A stretch of 64,000 nucleotides of DNA from Cyrtodaria siliqua (Eukaryota; Mollusca; Bivalvia; Adapedonta; Hiatellidae), in NCBI GenBank assembly GCA_037043455.1, contig JAWPHD010011524.1, positions 19,156 to 83,155 of the forward strand, written 5' to 3'. Positions within the stretch are counted from its first letter, which is position 1; the number at the start of each line of letters is the position of its first letter. Of the stretch, positions 27,197-64,000 are shown piece by piece. Below the pieces are notes generated by a model. The model ran no database searches and had not been told where the DNA came from. It saw nothing but the letters and a program-made list of their open reading frames with translations. Both the position numbers and the translations under genes were made by a program.

Positions 27197-27394
27197 GTGA
27201 GAACCTATTTCAAACTTGTTTGTGCTCGGATAAAAATCTGCCACCGCACTTTTTGTAGTTCTTTAAATGAAGCTTGTATTACCACATTAATTTTGTTATA
27301 CTTGCACGGTGCTGTTCAAAGTTAGAGTAAAAAATGCTTCCAATGATAATGAAAAATGCTTCCAATGATAATGCAGAGTGATTGTAATATAATC

Positions 27395-30064
27395 TTAACT
27401 TCCACTTAGACAATCCCACAGATAGGGATTCTGCCAGATTCATCAGTGCTCTTGACTCGTGTGGTATGCGGCAGCATGTCAGTGAACCCACACATATTGG
27501 TGGACATACGTTAGATGTTGTGATCACTAGAGATACTGAGAGCATAGTTTCTAATGTAGAAGTTACTGATCCCGGCCTGTCTGATAATTCTGGAAAAGTA
27601 GCGCGTGACCATCTCGCAGTAACTTTTAGTGTTAAAGCGGCAAGACCTGCCCCTGTCAGCAAGACTGTATCTTTCAGAAAAATTCGCTCTATAAACATTG
27701 ATTCCTTTAAAACTGATATCGAAACATCAAAAACTCTACACGATGCTTTAAAATGCACAGACCTTGATTATCTCGTCAATGTACTCCGTTACGTACGAAG
27801 TCGATTATTCTCAGGCCATCTTGTCCTTGGTTTAATGAGGAACTACATGACGCTAAACACTGTAAACGTACGCTGGAACGACAATGGCGTAAAATCAAAC
27901 TAACAGTTCACCACGAAATCTACAGAAACCAATGTGCAAAAATTAATAAACTACTTAAACAAGCTAGAGTCAGTTATTACTCTGACAAAATAGAATCCTG
28001 TGGACATGACCAAAAAAGTATCTTTAAGGTAACCAAACATCTGTTAGGCGCTTCAAAAGATATCATATTACCCTCCAACAATTCATCAAAGAAACTGGCA
28101 CAGGATTTCAGTGACTTTTTCATAAACAAAATAGAAACCATTAGATGCGATATATTTTTAGGAAATCATTCTGGTTCCAATTCCATGAATATTGACTCGG
28201 TTCAGGTACCACTAGAAAATCATCTGACAGATTTTACTCCTGCTACATCCAAGGAAGTGGAACGAATAATCCTACAATCTCCGAATAAATCGTGTGAATT
28301 GGATCCAATACCAACATGGTTGTTGAAATCATGTCTTGATGAACTTTTACCTGTTCTGACGAAGATCATCAACTCATCTCTACACTCGGCATACGTACTA
28401 AAGACATTTAAAAGTTCACGTATAAGACCTCTATTAAAAAAGCCAACCCTTGATCAAAACACTCTTAAAAACTACAGACCTGTGTCCAATCTCCCATTTA
28501 TCTCAAAGGTGTTAGAGAAGGTAGTCGACAAACGTTTGGAACAGATTTGTCCCTTAACGATCTTCACGAGAAACATCAGTCGGCGTACAGAAAGTGTCAC
28601 TCTACCGAAACTGCTTTACTCAAAGTCCAGAGTGACATCCTCCAGTCTTTAGACCAGAACAAGGTTACTATCTTAGTATTACTGGATCTCTCTGCTGCAT
28701 TTGACACCATCGATCATAGCACACTACTCTATCGCCTTGAACATGACTTTGGAATAGCCGGTAAGCCACTTGCATGGATGACATCCTATCTAAGTGATCG
28801 TTATCAAACTGTGTGCATTGACGGCGAACTATCCAATCCAGTGCTTATGAAATACAGTGTACCACAAGGAAAGGTCTTGGGGCCCAAAAACTATATCATG
28901 TATACCAAACCTGTAGGGGCAATTTATAGAAACCATGGACTAAATCATCATTTCTATGCTGATGACTCTCAGCTATACTTATCATTTGAACCTTTAGACA
29001 AAATTTCTCAAGTTGAAGTTATACGGCGAGGTGAAGCCTGTCTCAATGATATTGTCTCCTGGATGCACCACAATATGCTAAAACTAAATGCAGACAAAAC
29101 AGAACTTATATTGTTTTGCTCCAAGCGTAATGTGGAGTGTATATCTGACATATCTATTAAAGTTGGAGACTCTGAGATAAAACAATCATCATGTGTTAGA
29201 AATCTGGAAGCATTTCTCGATTCCAAAATGGACATGTAACAACAGGTGAATGCTGTTTGTAGGTCATGTTACGCCCAGTTACGACAAATAGGTCACATTA
29301 GACAATATCTAACCATTGATGCAACCAAAACCCTTGTAAATTCCCTTGTTACATCCAGACTTGACTATTGTAACTCCCTGCTTAGCGGTCTACCTAAGAC
29401 AATTTTGAACAAACTTCAAGCAGTTCAAAATACAGCAGCTCGTATCATTACTAGGAAATCTCGTTTCGACCACATCACACCAGTGTTAAAGGAGCTTCAC
29501 TGGCTCCCAGTGCAATACCGGATTGACTTTAAAATATTGAGTCACATCTATAAAGCCTTAAATGACCAATCTCCAAGCTACATCAAAAACATGTTAAAGG
29601 TGTATAGACCACAGCGTGACTTAAGATCCCACAGTGACACTCTGACTCTTGCAGTACCAAGATCTCGTAAAGTTACATACGGTGACCGTAGCTTTGCAAC
29701 TGCTGCTCCAAAGTTGTGGAATGCGCTTCCAGTGGGAATCCGGAATTCCAACACACTTGACTCTTTTAAGAGATCACTGTCATCTTATTATGACAGTACT
29801 ATTTTTTAAACATGGATTTTAAATTTAGTCAGTATAATAATAATGTCTTAACATTATCTTAGCAATATAATCTATATGTTGTTTTATATTTTACCACTAA
29901 ATATTTTCGCATATCTTAGAGTTAATACATGTATTATTCTTTTTTAGTTTTGACTGTGTGTGAATGTATTATTGTTTTACTTGTAAAGCACTTTTGAACG
30001 TATGTTATATATGAAAAGAGTGCTATATAAATATGGTATAATAATAATAATAATAATAATAATA
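27395..30064 (+). mobile_element. CR1/L2-like non-LTR retrotransposon, 5'-truncated
   Basis: Contiguous sequence from the end of the endonuclease domain through reverse transcriptase to a 3' terminus made of TGCTATATAAATATGGTATA and an (ATA)n tail (30,038-30,064), typical for CR1/L2-type elements. The 5' end starts abruptly inside the endonuclease, as expected for incomplete target-primed reverse transcription. The tail is intact although the coding part carries a few frameshifts and one stop, so the copy is of moderate age. Confidence 0.85.
27407..29809 (+). pseudogene. ORF2 remnant of the LINE: endonuclease C-terminus and reverse transcriptase
   Basis: In order: FISALDSCGMRQHV and THIGGHTLDVVITR (end of the APE-type endonuclease), PSCPWFNEELHDAKHCKRT (27,816 onward), FSDFFINKIETIR, SPNKSCELDPIPTWLLK, RPLLKKPTLD and NYRPVSNLPFISKVLEKVV (RT finger motifs). 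Then come HQSAYRKCHSTETALL, LDLSAAFDTIDH (motif A Asp), SVPQGKVLGP (motif B, Ser to Lys change) and YADDSQLY (motif C). The C-terminal part is SRLDYCNSLL, LHWLPVQYRIDFK and RSHSDTL, ending in a TAA at 29,807-29,809. Breaks: a frame change near 27,770-27,815, another near 28,545, and an in-frame TAA at 29,237-29,239. The segment after motif B (KNYIMYTKP) is degraded. Not functional. Confidence 0.85.
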
Positions 30065-51179: not shown

Positions 51180-53168
51180 AAAACAGGGTCTGGCACTAGC
51201 AATAATTACGATAATGAGCAGTTTATTAGAGGGTAACCAACTAATTAACTATAATCACGCACAGTATAATTTGATTATCGATCGATATTAGGCCTTCTGG
51301 AATCTTAATGAAAAATAAGAACAGAACAGAACTTATTCAACTCTTCTTAACTGTGATGAATTACACTACTATACTGACTAATAATTAACGTGATTTAATT
51401 ATGTATTGATTTTATACGTATACCTATTTTGTATGATGATGTAGGTATGAACAAGACTATTATATTCTGAACTGGTTCAGCTCATAATCAAATGATTATA
51501 GGGATGCCTGAACTGAGTAGAACCACCGTCCATCCATTATGTGACTCGAGCGGAACTCAAAATCACGATGTAGCGACACCCATTTTCTTTTCATATAAGG
51601 TCAATTATCCAAGTTGTTTTGTATATCTTTTGAGATGGTTTAATTCTAGTTTTGCAACGATAGCTTAATAATTAATAAAACAGATGTTTACGTGTTTACG
51701 CTTGAATATTTATGGTTTGGGGAATAAACAAATTTAATGGCAGCCAATCATATATGGTAAACCAGTCTGTACATCTTGAAAAATGCAATTTATGTGTTGT
51801 CTCCAACTAGAAACTATACATTAATATACACTTACCGTAAGTATTACCGAATAATATAATATCATCTGTATGCAGACGTATATTCTCTGTATGATTGTCT
51901 ATGCTTTAGTTACTTCGCGCTATTTTTTTCTTGTAGAGACTTAAACTTTTACATAGTTGTTCATCTAAAAAACATACATTCTTATAAATAAAATTTAAAC
52001 ACAATTACTATATTAGTACAAGTTCACCAATGTATATTTCATAATATGTGAACGACTACATTAGTTTTTAAATACGGTGCATTCAAAAGTGTTAATGAGA
52101 TAATTATACGGTAATATGCGATAATGAGTAACGAACGTCAAATAATTAGTGGCCAATAACTGTTAATTAGTGTTAATTAGTGTTGATTTGATAGTACCGA
52201 TCCTTGTACCCGAATTAAGAATGTGTGTAGCTATAGCGCATGGAAGATTGACTAAATTCATGTTGATATATAAAATATGATTGGAGAAGAAAATATTTTA
52301 TAACCGACTTTTCCAGATAAAAAGGATAGAAAAAATAATAGCTATTCAATTCCATTTGATCATCACTTTAATCAGGAGTAATTATACATATAATTAATCC
52401 CTGCTTTAATCCTAAAAAACATCTCAGAAGTGATTCATTCCTGAGTACAATTCTGTTATGTACACAAACAGAAATGATACCTTTTTTGCCGAAAAAAACT
52501 GGTGATTTATAATATAACTTATTGAAGCAAAAACCACAATGGGACATCAATGTTACTCTTTTCCTGAAGTTGTTATCACAATTCCGCACACATTTAATTA
52601 TTATTTTTATTTTTAAATTTAGTTTTAATAATTATCATTGAAAAATGAAATATACATTGTAAACTATAATTAATGCAATACACCCTACAAACACATTTTA
52701 AGTATTACTATGATATACAATGTTTAATACAATACATTTTCTCCATGTTAAAATGTGGTCAACGCGAGAAAAAATAAACGACAAACTGAAAATGATATAC
52801 TACTGCTAATATACGGATTTACTTTTCCAGATCATTAACACTAAACTAGTTGATTAAGTCATTTTTTTACATTTTTTTAAATCTACAAATGTGCATGCAA
52901 CACATTTAACTTATGTAACATATTATCAACTTGTATGCATAAACAATAATATAAAGAGAAAAAGTAAGCCATAGACTAATATGATCATACAATATATACA
53001 TATACATTTTTAACAGACGTAGCAAGATTCGCATATAAATGTATGAACAAATATCAGATGCGAAAATAAACAATGTTATACTGTTTACTTCTTTTTAGAG
53101 AACAAAAGTAGAAACAAAACACATGAACACGTCATAATTTTCATTTAAAATTTTACGGATAAGATAAC
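51180..53168. other. Long AT-rich stretch without recognisable features
   Basis: I found no reading frame with a known motif, no tRNA-like sequence and no tandem array longer than the short GTGTTAATTAGTGTT repetition near 52,165. This is the left flank of the TTAA transposon. Confidence 0.45.
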
Positions 53169-53172
53169 TTAA

Positions 53173-53230
53173 GGCCTATGTGCATTGTGAAATGGAAAAA
53201 AAGTGGGTGGGGTAATGAAATTGAGTTTTC
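53173..53230 (+). repeat. Left terminal inverted repeat of the TTAA transposon
   Basis: GGCCTATGTGCATT (53,173-53,186) and AAGTGGGTGGGGTAATGA (about 53,201-53,218), separated by 14 bp that differ between the ends. TTAA precedes it. Confidence 0.85.
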
Positions 53231-53849
53231 AATGAAAGAGTGTATTTGAAGACAAAAATGTGTGTCTAAGTTGAAATATATGTATAAACAATATCATTTG
53301 AAGAAGTGGAAAATAAAATTACCTTTTAATGAAGACGTTGTATATTGTTGCATATGTCCAACTTCACTACCATGGCAAGTGAGTTATCTTCTGTTTATCC
53401 TAAAAATAAAATCAGTATTACATAGTCCATTCTTCTGTTTAGGTGCAAGGAGTTTCAATTTTGACAATAAGGATCACACACGGTTACAATTGGTCAGAAT
53501 GCAAGGACGCTATGCACAAAACAATACAATTTTCAATATAAAAAAATAAGTAGAAAATAGTTCCTATTTACACATTAGTAAAATGTATGGTGGGTGATTT
53601 CTGTCATTATATTGGAGTAATATAGCAACATTAATATATGTATGTGAATGAATGAGAATTATATAAATGTATGCGTCTGTAAACTACTACAATACATAAA
53701 GGTAAGTGAAGGAAATATGCACAGATTCATCATTGCAATTCTTTTCGCAAAAAAGCATTTGTACTTAAATAGATATTTATGACACCAAAAATATTACCTA
53801 CATAGACAGAAGACAGACAGGCCAGCAGACACTGTTTCCCAGACAAACA

Positions 53850-54199
53850 CAGGGCTTTTTTCAACCAAATTGGAAAGAGGTCCAGGTCTGTCCATTTTTG
53901 GAAAAAAGAACACGCTTATTTCTCATTTTAGGAAAATTTTCATAAATTAAGTAAATATGACCTTAATATACTTTATTTATATTGTCATCCATTATTTACC
54001 ATAATTATTAAATTTTCCAAGTCGGAATTTACTTGGCAGCCAAAAACACACTGCAGAATTCATGCTTTTTCTCAAATTCTGAGAGACTGCTGTTTTCCGA
54101 TTGGGAAATATTTCTGCCACAGTTGGGAAAAAACAGTCCAATTTTCTGTTGGGAAGAGGCCCTTTACAGGCCTCTGTTATATAAGGTAAAAAAGCCCTG
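53850..54199. mobile_element. 350-bp MITE nested in the transposon's 3' region
   Basis: The ends are a perfect 12-bp inverted pair, CAGGGCTTTTTT and AAAAAAGCCCTG. AAACA stands directly outside both ends (53,845-53,849 and 54,200-54,204), consistent with a 5-bp target duplication. Inside are echoes of the form TTGGAAAGAGGTCCAG and CTGTTGGGAAGAGGCCC. It is non-coding and lies downstream of the gene's stop codon, so it probably does not affect the protein. Confidence 0.75.
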
Positions 54200-54242
54200 A
54201 AACAGGATCACATATACATGTATTAATACTAGACAGTTACCT

Positions 54243-54500
54243 TTAAATGTCAATAAATTTCACGGAACCACTTTTGAAATCTTCATGAAGGTGTTCAACT
54301 TCATATGGTTCTGCTTCATTATCATATAGTACTTCATATACTGCCGACTGTGTACCGTCACGACCTGATGTCACTCCTAGCACAATTCCTTGGAACCATT
54401 CAGTTTTTTTTGCTGCCTCATCAACTTCCCATTCATGACTTATCCGTCGTCCTACAAATTTTGTCTCAACTGTCCTCCGGGAGGTGCGACTGGGTTGTGT
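54243..54500 (-). CDS. Exon 4: spindlin-like (Spin/Ssty) tudor domain
   Basis: After the acceptor CAATTCACAG| the frame reads TQPSRTSRRTVETK, then FVGRRISHEWEVDE, KKTEWFQGIVLGV, SAVYEVLYDNEAEPYEVEHL and HEDFKSGSVKFIDI, then TAA. (F)VGRRI-H-W...W-G-V...YEVLYD....Y-VEL is the pattern of one Spin/Ssty repeat, the tudor-like fold that binds methylated histone H3 tails in spindlins. Candidate cage aromatics are W1028, F1029, Y1048, Y1052 and Y1059. Spindlins have three such repeats; here there is one. Confidence 0.7.
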   Translation of the reverse strand, partial: TQPSRTSRRTVETKFVGRRISHEWEVDEAAKKTEWFQGIVLGVTSGRDGTQSAVYEVLYDNEAEPYEVEHLHEDFKSGSVKFIDI

Positions 54501-57500
54501 CTGTGAATTGGAGAAAAAAAGTGAATGTTCAATGTTAATTACCGTGGACACAACATGCAGTCCACATAAGGGCAGATTATTATTTTTTTGATATATGTGA
54601 TTTTTTTCCAAATTGAGAAGTCATGGAAGTAGGAGGAGGGAATAAAAAATAAAATTGGAAAAACTCAGCATCTGAAATAAAATTATTAAAATTAAAATAA
54701 AATGATTAAAATTAACAATGATTTTTTTCATTAAACCGTAATTATAATTAAAATCATGATTTGTTTTGAAAAAAAAACACTTCTAAGATGATTAATAAAC
54801 ACATTTTCATATACTGGGTGTAATTACTATTGTTTAGAGCTTGAAAACTGATTTACTGCTCAGTTTTGAAAAAAAAATTCACATAACTGTTAAATGCAAA
54901 TAATCTCACCTAAATAAGTTTTACGCTAGACACAACTTTTGGTTTTTAAAAAAGTTGTAGCAGATCAAACAGGAGGAATTATTTTTTTATGATTTGGACT
55001 TTTATTTTACTTTTACAACATTTAGGGTAGGCTCTCCCGTAAATCTAAAAAAAAAATAAGAAGCTCTGGTCTAATGTTGTTTGTATGAATAAAAGTTGGA
55101 CTAAAAGTTAATGCATGAACACATTTCCTTAGAAGAGGTAAAATGAATTTCAATAAAAACAAATTACAGAAATGACTACTAAAATTTACCAATGTGGAAC
55201 TTGTACTTGGCTGTGGAGCTTCTGTTAGTTTGGCTTTCTTCACTGTTCCACTTGTACTCGGCTGAGGTGATTTCTGTGAAATAAATATTTGTTTCTCATT
55301 TATTAAATCACAGATAATAAATACTAAAGACAATGTTACTTTACACTAAGAATACAAAATAGATGAATTAATAAACAGTTTAAAGTGTGACAGTATTGAC
55401 GGACCAAAAATAAAAACACTTTCGCTGTTACTATTCAATGACACAACCCCTTTAATATGTTGATATTGTAAATAGAAACAATAGGACACGGATGCCTGAA
55501 CTGAAAATAGATCCACAGAAACTGCTAAATTAGACGACACGAAGGGCCATAACTACAGTAAATAAGTTTTGATTTTGATGCAGTATCTACATGCAATCAG
55601 TTGAAAAGTGTCAGAAGAGATGGCCAACACATTTTTCGGGACGGACAGACACTCAGACGATTCGACAGACACTCAAACAGGACGGACATGATGGCTGCGG
55701 TGGTGGGGTCATAAGTGTAGATATATAAATTGAAAAAAAAACACAAACCTTATGTACAGCTTCATCAGTATCTGTATTCGATTCTGATGAGGATTCAGGC
55801 TGACACTGAACACGCTTCTTGGAGATTGCCACGTTCACTGAGGTGTACTGTAATTGAAGTTATCTTTCAAATGTTATTCCAAATATAAATATTGTCATTT
55901 GTGTGTGTGCATGCTTTTGTAAAATAAGCAATTAAACACACACATTTAAATATAACTACACGTACATAAAATACTTACTGCCTAGTGGCTAGGGCATCCT
56001 TCAAAAAGTGTTGGTTTGCAGTTCTGCAACCTACATGTAATGACTAAAAAGGCAGCTACACATTATTTTTAAGCATTCAGGGCCATTTTTGTGCTTTTCC
56101 CTTTTGTTATTTTCAGGATTTAATTCCAAATTGCAGCATTTAGCCAGTGTGAGAGGAATCAGTAAAAATAATTGAATTGAATTTGGTTTTAAGGTTATAT
56201 GGCGCCTAACAGGAATGAACATGCCAGGCTCATCGTTCATGTACATGTACATCAAGATAAAATATGGAACATGGGCCTACAACCTTCCCACCTCCACAAC
56301 TGCAGAGTTGCTGCAGATTCTATTGTAGACATTCCATTTACGCTGGAACCACGTTTATTGTTTTCTGCCACTTCTCCAGTGATTTGATCTAGATGGCACC
56401 CGAAACAATGCAGGGGTCATGATGAAGACCTTTAATATCCATGAACAAAAAATGATCAAATGAACATTTATACAGTTCTACCCTCTGCCTACCCCTCCAA
56501 CGGCATCTGCAGTGGCCCTAATCTTTCCCCAGGAATCAAATGTGGGGCCCCCGGAACTACATGAAAAAATATGTCATTTGCTATTTAATGAATTTAAATG
56601 TGTAAAATACAAAATAGAACAATTTGCAACACCATTTTAGTGTGTAATTCCATTAATATTCAACAGAAAATGCAATGAAATTAAAGCTTGTTAATATTTC
56701 ACAACTTTCATCACTTTAATAATTGGAACTGATGAGTCACGATTTAGATATTAATTTGCTATTCTGCGAATGTTTTTTGTATGTGATCACACACCATGCT
56801 TATCTGTAGGTGGGAAGTATAGTTATTATGGTACTTTTTTGGTAAAACAAGATTTCAAATCAAAAGAAATAAAACTATTAAGACAGCTATTATTTTTTTA
56901 CCCACTTGGGAATGGTACCGCTTTTAGGTAACACTTATACAAATTAAAAAACACTAAGATACAAACCTTTTTTGTTTTTGTGTTGAACACAGTTTTTCAG
57001 CACCTTTTAGGCTATGGGTGATGATGGACTTTATTGAATTAATCCTGGGTAGAACCAGTACTGTATAACTCCTGCCATCCGTAAAACGTAGGTATTTAAA
57101 GGGACACTGTCCGTAAGTAAGCAGATATTGAGCATAACCAAATAACTCTCTGACTTTTATTCAGTGAACATGGTGAAATGTATACATGTACATGAAAACT
57201 TGAGCATAGTCCGAAAGAAGTGTGTAGTAATACATTCGTGAATTTGAAGAAAACAAATATTGTAATTATTATATGTAAATAATGTAGGGCCCACTTTATT
57301 TAACTTTTCTGCTGATCACGTGACTTCCATTAGCGCATTACGTTTTCTATCTAGTATGTATTGCACAATATGTATAGCCCGCTTAGCTCGTCAGGAGCGA
57401 TGTAGACAATCTCGCGCTCACTATTATTACCCGAGAGTGTAAATTTAGTTTGGGCTGCGAGTTCAAACGCACAAAACGGCACTTCTTTTTTTGCACCACG

Positions 57501-60456
57501 ATTGAATTCCTTGAACAATCTTGCATTTAAATAGTAAATATTCAATAATGTTTAGTGTGTAAGGTTTGTGAACGTAATTTGTGTGTGTTTAATAAGCTAA
57601 AAGTTACGGACATTGTCCCTTGAAGATAGGAGAAATAAGTTATACCATTTTTGCACTTACCCATGGAGATGCAGGTTCTCTTATGCCTGTAAATGTACTA
57701 TATCTTGGCAATGCCAATTCTGGGAGTAGAAAACTGTTGTAGAACACCGTCAGTTTCGGAACCATAACGTTTTCCCATAAATGTGAATCTCTGTAGATGC
57801 GCTCAATGTGTAATTCATGTGGATTACTCCTTCGAACAACAAAATCCAACCATTGAAACTGCATTATGTTTAACTGACCTTGAACTTGATAGAAGTAGGT
57901 GTGTGACTTTTTTAGTTTCAATCCTTCCCTTTTTGAATTCTCAAGACAAAATCCTGATATACTACTGGCTGCTTCAGCAAATGATTTGCGATTGGTTTGC
58001 AATAAGTTTTTGATCTCCAGCAACCCTATGTTACCATGATTGTCGGTGACTTTTCCATCAGTAGAGGCGGCCAAATGAGGATACTTATGACAAACAACTA
58101 GTCCAACTGGTTCCACTGAAGCTATGTCTGTTTTTTCATTCTTGTACTCAATTACAGTAAACTCTTCTTGAGCAAGTCCTCGAACAGTATTTATATTTCC
58201 TCGGAAATTGCTGTACAGAAGATCTTTCACAATAGCAGTTGAAACAGTGCATCCTTTTCTACACATTACTTTTCCAAAGTTGGAACTAGTCAGACGAACT
58301 TTCCTTTCATATTTCCATTTTTCTGACTGCGATTGGTCACATGTGGATTCCTCAATTCCTTTTATTTCAATTTCTGTTTTCGTTACAACCTTTTTCACAA
58401 ATCTGTCACACAGATCATTGAGTTTTTCTTTGGATACATCTGGTGTATCATCCAAAACACTAGGGCCGTAATCTCTTTTTCCCTTTTTATTACTGTCACT
58501 AGCAGTCGATGCAAGTTTTCGTTTTCTTCTCTGATCTTTTGCTTTCTGTGTATTTTGAGTTTTCAATGACGTATTCAAATGTTTAACGCGTTTCCTATAC
58601 TCGTTGCAGAAGACACTTCCAGGTCGTGTGCCTGTTGCCTTTTGAAATGCTATAGGTGACCATGCTGGCCCTAGGTTCTTCCGCAATGCACCACCCAAAC
58701 ACCTTGCCTGCCATGAGCCTCTGTTGCATCGGTTAATTACTTTAGCGCCATCAAATTTTGATCTCATGGACATCCAGCTTTCAGCTAAATTTGTTGTGAA
58801 ATTGCCAATGAGCCTACTGCTTTTGTCTGCAAGTCTGTTTAACAAAACTGTGACATCCCTAATTATGTCACTTCTATCCGACTCGTCTACAGAGCTACTA
58901 CATGCCGACCTACTGTTTTCTTCCTCCTTCTCATTACCAAAATTCCAATACTCCGCCTGTCTTTCAAACAATTCATCCAATTCATTACTGTCATCTATTT
59001 CATCAATATCCGGAGAAGAATCTACTTGACCAACTGGCACTTTTTTACAAAAGTCTGAACATTGATCATGTAAACCTAATACATGTCTGATAGAATTTCT
59101 TATGTCCTTTGCCAATTGTTTAGAGTCTTTGGTCTTACTTCGCATTTTTATAGCACAACGCACTGCTGTTGTGAGTTTCACACGGTTAACTTTGGAAAGT
59201 TTGCCCTTTCCTTTATAATGCGGTTTTTCAACAACTAGTTTTTCTAGGCTGCTTCTCAAACACTTGCATGCATGGTTTGCACATTCTAATTTTGTCACTT
59301 TTCTTCCCCAAACTGGAACTAACTCCTGAATTCGTGCGTAGACCGAACTATCACCGTCTCCAATAACTCGCATATACCTAATACCATGCATCGATTCTGC
59401 TTGTTGAAACCCCTTTACTATCATGTCTGCCTCCATGGATTGTGAACTCTGTGACCAGTTTTTATAACAAGTATGCGGCTTTGCCTCCACATTATCAGAA
59501 ATGGCTTTACTGCAAACATAACAGTACTTATTTCTTATTCCTAGATACAGTAATTGTTTAGTTTCTGCTCCAAAAATCACTGCTACACCTCCTGCCGCAT
59601 TATAAGAATGTTTGTGGGTACGCTTACTCCACCCCCCGTCAACAATGACTGTAATGGCTGGCACACCTTCACAATAATCACCTCTCTCAATAGCCAATCG
59701 CTTTTCCTCTGCTCCTGCTTTCATCATTTCCTCCTTTAAAATATCTTCCCACCACGTGCCTATTTGTTCCTCAATTTTGGAAAATGTTCGAGGATCCATT
59801 GCGGGAACGGACATGGTTCCTAAAAACTCATTCATCGATGAAGCCCCACCACCTGTGGCCATTGTTCCCCAAACAGCTCTTATGTTAATGTCATTAAATA
59901 TCTTCTTGCCACTTGTGTCATTCACAGTTTCTGGGCTGGTTCTTAAACAAAATTTCTTTTTGCACCCATGACACTTCACACTAAGAATACTAGCTATTCC
60001 AATCTTGCACGATTCACATTCAATAGAAAGAGGTTTCTTACCTTCAGCCACTAAAGCATGTGCTGCAGAGCACTCGATGCCATGTGTCGTTATTTCCACA
60101 ACATGGTCCTTCAGCATGTCCAGATTTATAATCCTATATCCATCTATATCCACGCTCTCCTTTGATTTAATTACAAACTTTAAACTTGTGCTTCCTAAAC
60201 TAAATACCGCTGTGTCTTTTTTTTTCAACACTGGAATTCTACGAACAATAAATTTTGTACAACTTTTACCACCCACTACACATGCCTTCCTAACCAACTG
60301 ATATGGTTTCGAAAATGTGTTACCTTTATCTATTAGTAATGTCTTCTCTTCTTGTCTGACAAGCACACCTTTCTCATTTATTCTAAACTTCTTACTCTGC
60401 ACACCACCAGCTACATTGAATGGCCTCCTCTTCGTGCCTTTCCGCTTGTTACCCAT
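54243..60456 (-). CDS. Mutator-type transposase - YqaJ nuclease - spindlin-like fusion (4 exons)
   Basis: Model on the minus strand: exon 1 60,456-57,661; exon 2 55,847-55,749; exon 3 55,273-55,190; exon 4 54,500-54,243 (TAA). All three introns are GT-AG, all in phase 0, and the joined frame gives 1,078 residues. Domains: basic N-terminus; C-x2-C pairs (CESC, CHGC, residues 147-166); Mutator-like DDE domain about 190-600 with candidate acids in VDGGW (D273), IGDGDSS (D367/D369) and NLAESW (E559) plus CANH (C392/H395); basic linker 625-665; YqaJ domain about 712-920; Ser/Pro-rich linker 933-993; spindlin-like tudor domain 1008-1075. The protein should move this transposon: DDE strand transfer, a nuclease of the lambda-exonuclease fold, and a chromatin reader. 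The splicing is inferred from sequence only; without it the first exon would end six residues later (VSAKMV). Confidence 0.75.
55190..55273 (-). CDS. Exon 3: PQPSTS-repeat linker (28 codons)
   Basis: Bounded by TTTCACAG| and ACATTG|GTAAAT. It encodes SPQPSTSGTVKKAKLTEAPQ then PSTSSTL, i.e. the motif PQPSTS twice. 84 bp, phase 0 at both ends. Confidence 0.65.
55749..55847 (-). CDS. Exon 2: acidic/Ser-rich linker (33 codons)
   Basis: Bounded by CAATTACAG| and CATAAG|GTTTGTG. It reads YTSVNVAISKKRVQCQPE and SSSESNTDTDEAVHK. The length is a multiple of three and both junctions are phase 0, so it could be skipped without breaking the frame. The KKRVQ and acidic stretch suggest a flexible nuclear linker. 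Confidence 0.65.
55850..57660 (-). other. Intron 1 of the transposon gene, with nested repeats
   Basis: About 1.8 kb between the exon 1 donor and exon 2 acceptor. It holds the 57,101-57,619 MITE and a weak SINE-like stretch at about 55,978-56,050 (CCTAGTGGCTAGGGCATCC), otherwise AT-rich sequence. Short open stretches inside (57,351-57,545; 56,031-56,255) have no domain signature. Confidence 0.55.
57101..57619. mobile_element. 519-bp MITE nested in intron 1
   Basis: GGGACACTGTCCGTAA at 57,101-57,116 is inverted as TTACGGACATTGTCCC at 57,604-57,619, with one mismatch. The related starts AAAGGGACAC at 30,115 and 36,455 suggest a dispersed family. A clear target duplication is not visible. Confidence 0.7.
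57661..60456 (-). CDS. Exon 1: zinc-finger-like, Mutator DDE and YqaJ domains (932 codons)
   Basis: Open without any stop from ATG 60,456. I prefer this ATG because the only upstream in-frame codons are GTG-AAA after a TAA-type stop. The Mutator-like core shows AITVIVDGGWSKRTHKH and GGVAVIFGAETKQLLYLG, then CYVCSKA...C, then MRVIGDGDSS and KLECANHACKCL, then NFTTNLAESWMSMRSKFDGA. The YqaJ part shows KVRLTSSNFGKV, HLAASTDGKV (D800), GLLEIKN (E814, K816) and YFYQVQGQL (Q857), the nuclease motifs in correct order. The exon ends CCATGG|GTAAGTGC, a consensus donor. An AT-rich TATA-like ATATATAAATA is about 60 bp upstream (60,512-60,522). A strong donor (AAAAAG|GTAAGTAC, 60,763) further up may mark a non-coding first exon. 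Confidence 0.9.
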
Positions 60457-61673
60457 TTTCACTTATTTCACACTATAACAACTTCTTGTCTATTTATTAC
60501 AGTTGTCACACAATATTTATATATTCACATATTTTTAAATTACACAATTTGTTATATCCATTTAAACTTATTTACACACACCATTTTCACAGAGAAATCC
60601 ATTACGTTATTTGCTTCCACATGGCTCGTCTTTAGCACGATTTACCCACCATACAGGTGTTCCCCGTGTAATTCAATTTTGTTTTGAATAATGTCCATGC
60701 TTTTTTCATGCATGTCATGTTGTTTACATTTCTCGACGCAATCAAACAAACTGTGTACTTACCTTTTTGGGTTATCATCGGCGTCAAAACACATTGGGAA
60801 AATGCAATGCTAAGTATTAATATCAATATTTACCTGAAACTGCAAATGATCTTCATGTAGATTCTTTAAAATCTGTCAATTACTGCTATTGTGTATAGTT
60901 CCGGTCAAATTCAGAATGACTTTTCACCACTTCCGGAAACAGTTCCGACGGAAAATAGGTCCCATGCCGTTTTGTTTATTTTAGTATTTATTTATTTTTC
61001 TTTCAACAAGTTATTGAAATATTTATCTAATGGATATCACAATACATTTAAAGCATGAAGTAATGCAATATTTTATAACAAATACGATCTTTTTCTGCAG
61101 ACTTCTTTTCGGCGTAAGAATATATATTCCAATTTCCGTTATTCGCCGCTCCAAAACATGAAGATGCCTTCAATGATGACTTACACATGCATTTTAAAAC
61201 TAGCATAACATGCAAAAGGTTTGATAGAAAATGTTCCGATCACAGACTTTATTTAGAGTGAATAATACTTTATAAATTGCATCAGCTTCGTTGCTAAGAT
61301 CTTTTCATATACACCCGAAAAATTATCATGCATTTACTGTGTATTAAATTTTATACAAATTCCATCATTGCGGCACTCTCAACGGTACACATGTCAAACA
61401 CAGTTTATTATAGTTACACTTGCTATTCTTTTTTACACAAAAAAAAGTTTCGTTGCATCTAAAGTAGGTCACTGACAGTTCATTTCACCATTGTTTGTTT
61501 GCCAAATTTTGAAAGTCATTAAGAATGACCGTAGTAAAAATAGTTGTTTACATTTGTGCCAGTCACACTTCACTGCTACTTTAACACGTAGTGCTGTATA
61601 CAAAACAATTTCACCTACCCATTGCTTTTAAGTGGGCTTTTTATTTATTCTTTAAATATACACCTTACAGAGG
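60457..61673 (-). other. 5' non-coding region of the transposon
   Basis: Between the gene's ATG and the right TIR. It contains the candidate TATA-like box and non-coding exon donor described for exon 1; no other reading frame is recognisable. Confidence 0.45.
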
Positions 61674-61728
61674 TTTCAATTTCTCATTACCCCACCCACT
61701 TTTACTCAATCTGTAATGCACATAGGCC
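61674..61728 (-). repeat. Right terminal inverted repeat of the TTAA transposon
   Basis: Inverse of the left end: TCATTACCCCACCCACTT (about 61,684-61,701) and AATGCACATAGGCC (61,715-61,728), then TTAA. Confidence 0.85.
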
Positions 61729-61732
61729 TTAA

Positions 61733-62528: not shown

Positions 62529-63100
62529 AATCTGGTAAAGTTTGGTAAAGATAACATGAAAAATAAAGGCCCTATCGTCTTAACGTGGCAAAATATAGCA
62601 TTTTTAACGATTTCAAGGGCCACAACTCCGCTGTTACTGGTCCGATCTGGCTGGTTTTCGAACTTGTCTGAGCTCCCATTGAAATTAACAATCTGGTAAA
62701 GATTGGTAAAGATCTGATGAAAAATGAAGGCCCTACCGTCTTAACGAGGTAAAATATCAACATTTTTTACTAAATCAACTCCTTTGTTACTGGTCCGATC
62801 TGGCTGGTTTTTGAAGTTGTCCGAGCTTTCATTGATATTAACAATCTAGTAAAGTTTGGTAAAGATCGAATGAAGGCCCTATCATCTTAACGAGGCAAAA
62901 TGAAGCATTTTTAACTAAATCAAGGGTCATAACTCCCCTGTTACTGTTCCGATCTGGCTGGTTTTCAAACTTTTCCGAGCTTTCATTGATATTAATAATC
63001 TGGTATAATTTGGTGAAGATCGGATGAAAAATGAAGGCCATATCGTCTTAACGAGGTAAAAGTTAACAGACGGACGGACGACGGACATCTCGCCATCCCA
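62529..63100 (+). repeat. Tandem ~155-bp units (GATCTGGCTGG type) with (ACGG)n end
   Basis: Units begin AATCTGGTAAAG at 62,529, 62,690, 62,843 and 62,997. Each has AAGATC(G)GATGAAAAATGAAGG, CGTCTTAACGAGG, CATAACTCC..TGTTACTGGT and CCGATCTGGCTGGTTTT. The last unit breaks into GACGGACGGACGACGGACAT and CTCGCCATCCCATAAT. Confidence 0.85.
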
Positions 63101-63479: not shown

Positions 63480-64000
63480 TTGACTACATAGATCAGATGA
63501 TATGTTCGTGTCCACTGTTAGGTAATGACAATACGTTGACTACATAGATCAGATGATATGTCCGTGTCCACTGTTAGGTAATGACAATACGTTGACTACA
63601 TAGATCAGATGATATGTTCGTGTCCACTGTTAGGTAATGACAATACGTTGACTACATAGATCAGATGATATGTTCGTGTCCACTGTTAGGTAATGACAAT
63701 ACGTTGACTACATAGATCAGATGATATGTTCCGTGTCCACTGTTAGGTAATGACAATACGTTGACTACATAGATCAGATGATATGTCCGTGTCCACTGTT
63801 AGGTAATGACAATACGTTGACTACATAGATCAGATGATATGTTCGTGTCCACTGTTAGGTAATGACAATACGTTGACTACATAGATCAGATGATATGTTC
63901 GTGTCCACTGTTAGGTAATGACAATACGTTGACTACATAGATCAGATGATATGTTCCGTGTCCACTGTTAGGTAATGACAATACGTTGACTACATAGATC
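63480..64000 (+). repeat. 56/57-bp satellite array with 4-unit higher-order period
   Basis: Nine full units start at 63,480, 63,536, 63,592, 63,648, 63,704, 63,761, 63,817, 63,873 and 63,929; a tenth is cut by the window edge. Each begins TTGACTACATAGATCAGATG and ends AGGTAATGACAATACG. Units differ only at one place: ATGTTCG, ATGTCCG or ATGTTCCG. Units 2-5 (TCCG, TTCG, TTCG, TTCCG) and 6-9 show the same series, giving a 225-bp higher-order repeat present twice without visible differences. The array continues beyond the window. Confidence 0.95.

Follow-up and report, generated by a model that had tools for sequence, protein, structure and literature searches.

The integrases of chromoviruses and Mavericks carry a C-terminal chromodomain, a reader of histone methyl-lysine on the recombinase of a mobile element, and chromatin readers on retroelement integrases set integration sites. 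To our knowledge, a reader domain of its own that sets the integration sites of a DNA transposase has been little explored. A YqaJ nuclease is known from the eukaryotic DNA transposon ISL2EU (PHIS superfamily), which is of the PIF/Harbinger type and encodes it on a separate open reading frame. The fusion of a transposase to a lambda-exonuclease-like nuclease has already been described as KolobokE (Kojima and Bao, 2022, PMC9587614, in its account of that group). Here, we analyse a mobile element in a 64,000-nucleotide stretch of the bivalve Cyrtodaria siliqua (contig JAWPHD010011524.1), referred to below as the window. With moderate confidence, we read it as a young KolobokE-type DNA transposon that combines a DDE transposase, a nuclease and a spindlin-type Tudor domain and would act by the mechanism proposed below.

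Compared with these systems, the window protein joins a DDE transposase, a YqaJ nuclease and a Tudor domain, whereas chromodomain integrases join a retroviral-type integrase to a chromodomain; its YqaJ nuclease resembles that of ISL2EU but is fused. Spindlin (SPIN1-4, Spin/Ssty) has the same Tudor fold, and its repeat 2 comes nearest, sharing the cage residues W/F, W, Y and partly Y; it contains three repeats, whereas the window protein has one, fused to a transposase. In its zinc fingers and fused nuclease, the window protein agrees with KolobokE (Repbase; PMC9587614), whose main-text mentions in that paper name no Tudor or spindlin domain, whereas the window element has a recurrent C-terminal one. 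According to the passages of PMC9587614 on KolobokP, KolobokD and KolobokH, these share with it the superfamily, TTAA and the presence of accessory nucleases or helicases, but the accessories differ (His-Me finger, DEDDh, RecQ). A sequence-only reading of the window, made before this analysis, knew of no described transposase with a spindlin-type reader. This stands, as far as found; the transposase-nuclease fusion is described as KolobokE in PMC9587614 (main-text account), so that novelty, to the extent of our search, is confined to the Tudor module. In the open-access literature, no title or abstract linked a transposase to a Tudor or spindlin domain, Repbase entries and most subscription journals lying outside this search; KolobokE with a spindlin-type reader is, as far as found, a new combination.

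Transposase, termini and copies of the element

The element contains a four-exon gene on the minus strand, with AG/GT borders, every exon in phase 0 and a predicted product of 1078 residues (Table 1). The sequence-only reading had placed DDE transposase and YqaJ nuclease in one 932-codon exon, whose donor (TGG/GTAAGT) fits three downstream exons in phase; both statements were borne out, the first by Pfam matches to PF20700 ("Mutator", E=1.2e-82) and YqaJ (E=1.2e-7). The nuclease is of the lambda-exonuclease-like PD-(D/E)xK type. The transposase motif residues D273, D367/D369, CANH at 392 and E559 align with positions that are invariant or nearly so in an alignment of 28 proteins, the counterpart of E559 in the homologue P0005 (E577) being invariant. 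A zinc finger (HVLGLHDQCSDFC at 458-470; residues 458/463/466/470) lies between the second D and the E, downstream of C/DxxH, and a second, CCHC zinc finger follows the first D (CYVC...PHTC at 312-330; residues 312/315/328/330), the aligned C308, C311, H324 and C326 of P0005 being invariant in the same alignment. Zinc-finger residues were picked by eye with PMC9587614 as the guide, which in the part concerned also reports the second CCHC finger from KolobokP, KolobokD and Kolobok5, so that it is not unique to KolobokE. In structure comparison with VIA-align, the transposase fold resembles ISCth4, and the best 50 rows for the full-length model contained no spindlin, being filled by nuclease and transposase matches.

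Table 1. Positions of the element, its gene and its predicted domains in the window
Feature	Position	Strand	Remarks
Whole element, KolobokE-type, 8,556 bp including ~350-bp nested insert	53173..61728	-	ends from copy alignment
TTAA target-site copy, exon-4 end	53169..53172	.	each of the four A-family copies has TTAA on either side
TTAA target-site copy, exon-1 end	61729..61732	.	
Terminal inverted repeat GGCCTATGTGCATT..., exon-4 end	53173..53225	+	inner limit approximate
Terminal inverted repeat, exon-1 end	61676..61728	-	inner limit approximate
Exon 1, transposase and nuclease	57661..60456	-	932 codons, open
PF20700 transposase match, residues 107-467	59056..60138	-	D273, D367/D369, CxxH at 392
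Catalytic E559 (NLAESW)	58780..58782	-	aligns with E577 of P0005
YqaJ/lambda-exonuclease-like nuclease, residues 713-864	57865..58320	-	E764, D800, E814-x-K816
Exon-1 splice donor GTAAGT (TGG/GTAAGT)	57655..57660	-	
Exon 2, linker, 33 codons	55749..55847	-	predicted from splice sites
Exon 3, low-complexity linker, 28 codons	55190..55273	-	predicted from splice sites
Exon 4, single spindlin-type Tudor domain and stop codon	54243..54500	-	predicted splice model
Predicted methyl-lysine cage residues W1017, W1028, Y1052, Y1059	54303..54431	-	spindlin cage residues as given in the relevant part of PMC7864079

Copies were searched in the 2.88 Gb genome containing the window, in which exon 1 has at least 58 matches. 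Three other copies are 98% identical to the window element from position 53168/53169 to 61734/61742, where the alignment ends abruptly; two of the three are allelic, giving three insertion loci of this family (A), window included. All four A copies read TTAA/GGCCTATGTGCATT ... AATGCACATAGGCC/TTAA, and the exon-4-end pattern has four mismatch-free occurrences in the genome, one per A copy. The two terminal inverted repeats are ~50 bp long and 84% identical over 58 columns, TTAA counted in. Three further subfamilies, 47-62% identical in exon 1, start with TTAA/GGACTATGG (B, four loci), TTAA/GGTATTTCC (C, three loci) and TTAA/GGTTATTTA (D, two loci), with flanks that differ at each locus. Of the four B loci, all but C7478 showed both ends, whereas C and D showed one end only. 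TTAA stands at both ends of the four A copies (three loci) and of three B copies, and the termini are GG...CC at both ends in A and B; the single end observed for C and for D has GG. Terminal repeats, TTAA ends and dispersed copies uphold the earlier view that the gene belongs to a transposon. Several copies keep open reading frames, as a host-domesticated fusion gene would, but the dispersal of copies with TTAA ends and differing flanks, the 98% identical copies elsewhere and the many copies with stops make domestication highly improbable.

The A copy at locus C7034 is inserted within another dispersed repeat (at least 40 scored copies, 87-95% identity; C7034 around 28261 and 36489). Four element-free copies were fetched of the 40 scored, and all four hold a single TTAA, whereas the occupied site has TTAA on each side. 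Because the empty sites hold TTAA once, it is a genuine target-site duplication of 4 bp, at any rate in the A family, of which this test covers one locus.

The size of the duplication bears on the superfamily. A Mutator element in the strict sense (MULE) would agree with the name that Pfam gives PF20700, Mutator-like transposase, and with the likeness of the fold to ISCth4, an IS256-type transposase, IS256 being held akin to Mutator. The target-site duplication of MULEs is ~9 bp (8-11), whereas the flanks here share only TTAA and no longer duplication, the termini are GG, and both the zinc fingers of Kolobok type and the fused nuclease agree with KolobokE. We therefore rejected classical Mutator, which the 4-bp TTAA duplication leaves very improbable and the empty sites refute for the A family. 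Because of this duplication and the GG termini, the element is assigned to the Kolobok superfamily; "Mutator-type", as the sequence-only reading had it, derives from the Pfam label only. The narrower assignment to KolobokE is set by motifs and the fused nuclease against the account of that group in PMC9587614. The name of PF20700 is misleading, as the members studied have TTAA ends and Kolobok motifs, and Pfam's "Mutator" is thereby shown to cover Kolobok transposases.

The Tudor exon

The Tudor exon is a constant component of the element, and its domain recurs beside the transposase in a large clade of elements. Wherever both ends are visible, at three A-type and three B-type loci, the terminal repeats enclose exon 4; a Tudor exon outside the repeats, which the sequence-only reading had named as a refutation of its model, is thus not what these loci show. 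Each of the 13 other loci examined (two of them allelic), which represent four subfamilies and the singleton C44, carries exon 4 downstream and on the same strand; in B copies and C44 it is interrupted by an intron. When the two genome-wide lists are compared, a Tudor exon is listed for 27 of 49 exon-1 loci, always downstream, on the same strand and 1.2-5.4 kb away. The donor TGG/GTAnGn was present in 13 of 14 genome loci, window included, and the exon end of C44 was not located. A genome search with exon 4, in which 150 of 363 candidates were scored, gave at least 150 matches, and 113 of these 150 have no in-frame stop.

Exon 4 might instead come from a host gene or another element beside the transposase, with a fortuitous splice model; the splice joins are predicted, and exons 2 and 3 are short and of low complexity. 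Against this, the exon sits inside the repeat unit at the A-type and B-type insertion loci and recurs at the 13 other loci and in gene models of four genera, so that element copies and gene models together lead us to reject this reading as scarcely credible. We infer that exons 1-4 are spliced into one protein; the spliced spindlin-like C-terminus proposed by the sequence-only reading thus holds as a predicted splice model whose Tudor exon recurs in copies. Read-through of intron 1 leaves six further open codons (...PW VSAKMV stop), and a retained intron 1 would yield a Tudor-less form ending at that point.

The exon-4 domain has the Spin/Ssty Tudor repeat fold and aligns in VIA-align to the histone-binding repeat of spindlin (repeat 2), H3K4me3-bound entries included. 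In a 10-row alignment, three cage positions are invariant. From the match to spindlin repeat 2, we infer that the domain would bind a methylated histone tail, with H3K4me3 as the best guess. The profile checks that the sequence-only reading had proposed succeeded for Mutator-like and YqaJ and failed for Spin-Ssty, for which exon 4 gives a sub-threshold match (E=0.038); among ten relatives, five match PF02513 at E up to 10, the best at 2.7e-4. Comparison of exon 4 among subfamilies A, C and D gives 67-72% identity at the first two codon positions and 25-38% at the third, and the non-synonymous divergence (dN) of exon 4 is not above that of exon 1 in two comparisons.

Four Tudor exons each occur in contigs C1999 and C6950; in C1999 they are spaced ~41 kb apart with equal scores, as in a large tandem duplication.

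Homologues and their gene models

Relatives with the domain were found in other molluscs, as the sequence-only reading had suggested looking for: at E<1e-10, it is present in nine of 120 protein homologues (two from Mizuhopecten, four from Mytilus, one each from Lottia and Ruditapes, and P0040), in each of which a single stretch passes E=0.01. Two of the Mytilus proteins (P0035 and P0110) look chimeric. Two more homologues were weak in the profile scan (P0055, E=0.026; P0023, E=0.36) and were left out of the count.

The exon-1 end GIR..W occurs in 52 of the 120 homologues, of which 41 go on with V, eight with Y or F and three with other residues (M, M, I). A V at this place is what read-through of the GT donor would give. 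All eight proteins with Y or F carry the Tudor domain, and the ninth Tudor protein, P0035, has no GIR..W end. In Ruditapes, the near-identical proteins P0021 and P0001 (tip lengths 0.030 and 0.0035) differ in the domain, which is present in the former and absent from the latter; because of this pair, the short homologue models may be unspliced readings of the same gene, as the sequences suggest.

The tree comprises 65 of the 120 proteins, P0110, P0035, P0052, P0060 and P0076 having been dropped by hand as chimeric or odd and the others by a complete-row motif filter. Tudor-bearing models are scattered over it and do not form one clade (five changes; 85 of 500 shuffles equally low). This scatter fits annotation differences, since P0001 (unspliced) and P0021 (spliced) are near-identical; the tree does not establish a single origin. 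Four rows labelled "none" (P0007, P0013, P0023 and P0053) do finish with ..WV, though their motif differs slightly, and a basal group of seven rows (midpoint rooting), which includes arthropod proteins, has neither the donor-type end nor the domain.

Proposed function and surrounding repeats

In the mechanism that we propose, the transposase would cut and join the element ends at TTAA, the nuclease might trim DNA ends or flaps in excision, gap repair or strand processing, and the Tudor domain, bound to a methylated histone tail, could anchor the transposase complex in a particular type of chromatin. Since exon 1 stays open for only six codons into intron 1, splicing could decide whether the reader is attached, and unspliced transcripts would give a Tudor-less enzyme. 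Tentatively, an entire clade of animal DNA transposons might then carry a dedicated spindlin-type reader on the transposase that steers TTAA integration to or from H3K4me3-type chromatin, with alternative splicing setting the presence of the reader; this is possible, though short of an even chance.

In the same element, the Tudor domain might instead recruit host factors, retain the protein at active chromatin for expression or repair, counteract silencing, or bind DNA or a methylated protein other than a histone. The binding of partner peptides by spindlins (SPINDOC and HBx entries are among the matches) and the variable fourth cage position would agree with such roles, whereas the invariance of three cage positions in ten rows and the alignment to the histone-binding spindlin repeat, including its H3K4me3-bound entries, speak against them, and we consider them somewhat unlikely.

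Several observations weigh against our main reading. Any site preference might be due simply to the choice of TTAA as target. Window exon 4 by itself misses the curated cut-off of PF02513 (14.2 bits vs 25), the best single stretch of the domain comparison reaches E=0.025 (the figure of 2.8e-5 sums several repeats), exon 4 holds one Tudor domain vs three repeats in spindlin, and four of ten rows have V, Q, C or H at the fourth cage position. Of the 49 exon-1 loci, 22 have no listed Tudor exon, two of which (C2113 and C44) have one on direct search. Near-identical copies hold too few Tudor changes for selection to be measured (one synonymous and two other between the window and C7034), and clear constraint is absent from two of five close exon-1 pairs (dN/dS 1.32 and 0.77, based on 3.8 and 2.0 synonymous changes). 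A homologue search with residues 1002-1078 gave two candidates and no match, and one with residues 900-1070 of P0006 found only P0006 and P0005 among 262 candidates; these domain-aimed searches say little on distribution, because other proteins with the domain had already been found among the homologues.

If the reader does target integration, a DNA transposon may choose its landing sites by reading chromatin, as the fusion suggests. The element provides a naturally occurring enzyme in three parts, a DDE transposase, an exonuclease and a Tudor reader. Its many copies, with one recent family, and its clean empty sites at TTAA make insertion bias measurable and changes to single domains or residues testable.

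Other repeats occur in and around the element. A ~350-bp insert (window 53850-54199) with inverted ends CAGGGCTTTTTT..AAAAAAGCCCTG and a short AAACA repeat at its borders is present only in the window copy and is a young nested element. Intron 1 contains a stretch resembling a miniature inverted-repeat transposable element (window 57096-57624; 21-nt ends 90% complementary), which is probably older than the spread of the element copies, because it lies inside the part aligned in one piece to them. Tandem arrays adjoin the element (window 62529-63061 and 63480-64000; periods 161 and 56/225 bases), and its flanks on both sides share an 82-base direct repeat (78%). Broken reverse-transcriptase-like open frames with a YADD-type motif, seen by eye, at window 27388-29809 are probably a decayed long interspersed nuclear element. 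Elsewhere in the genome, contigs C1824 (253672-288854; seven listed), C21886 and C22149 contain head-to-tail PF20700 transposases, mostly ~4.8-4.95 kb apart, which, judged from coordinates only, look like the KolobokP multimers described in the corresponding part of PMC9587614.
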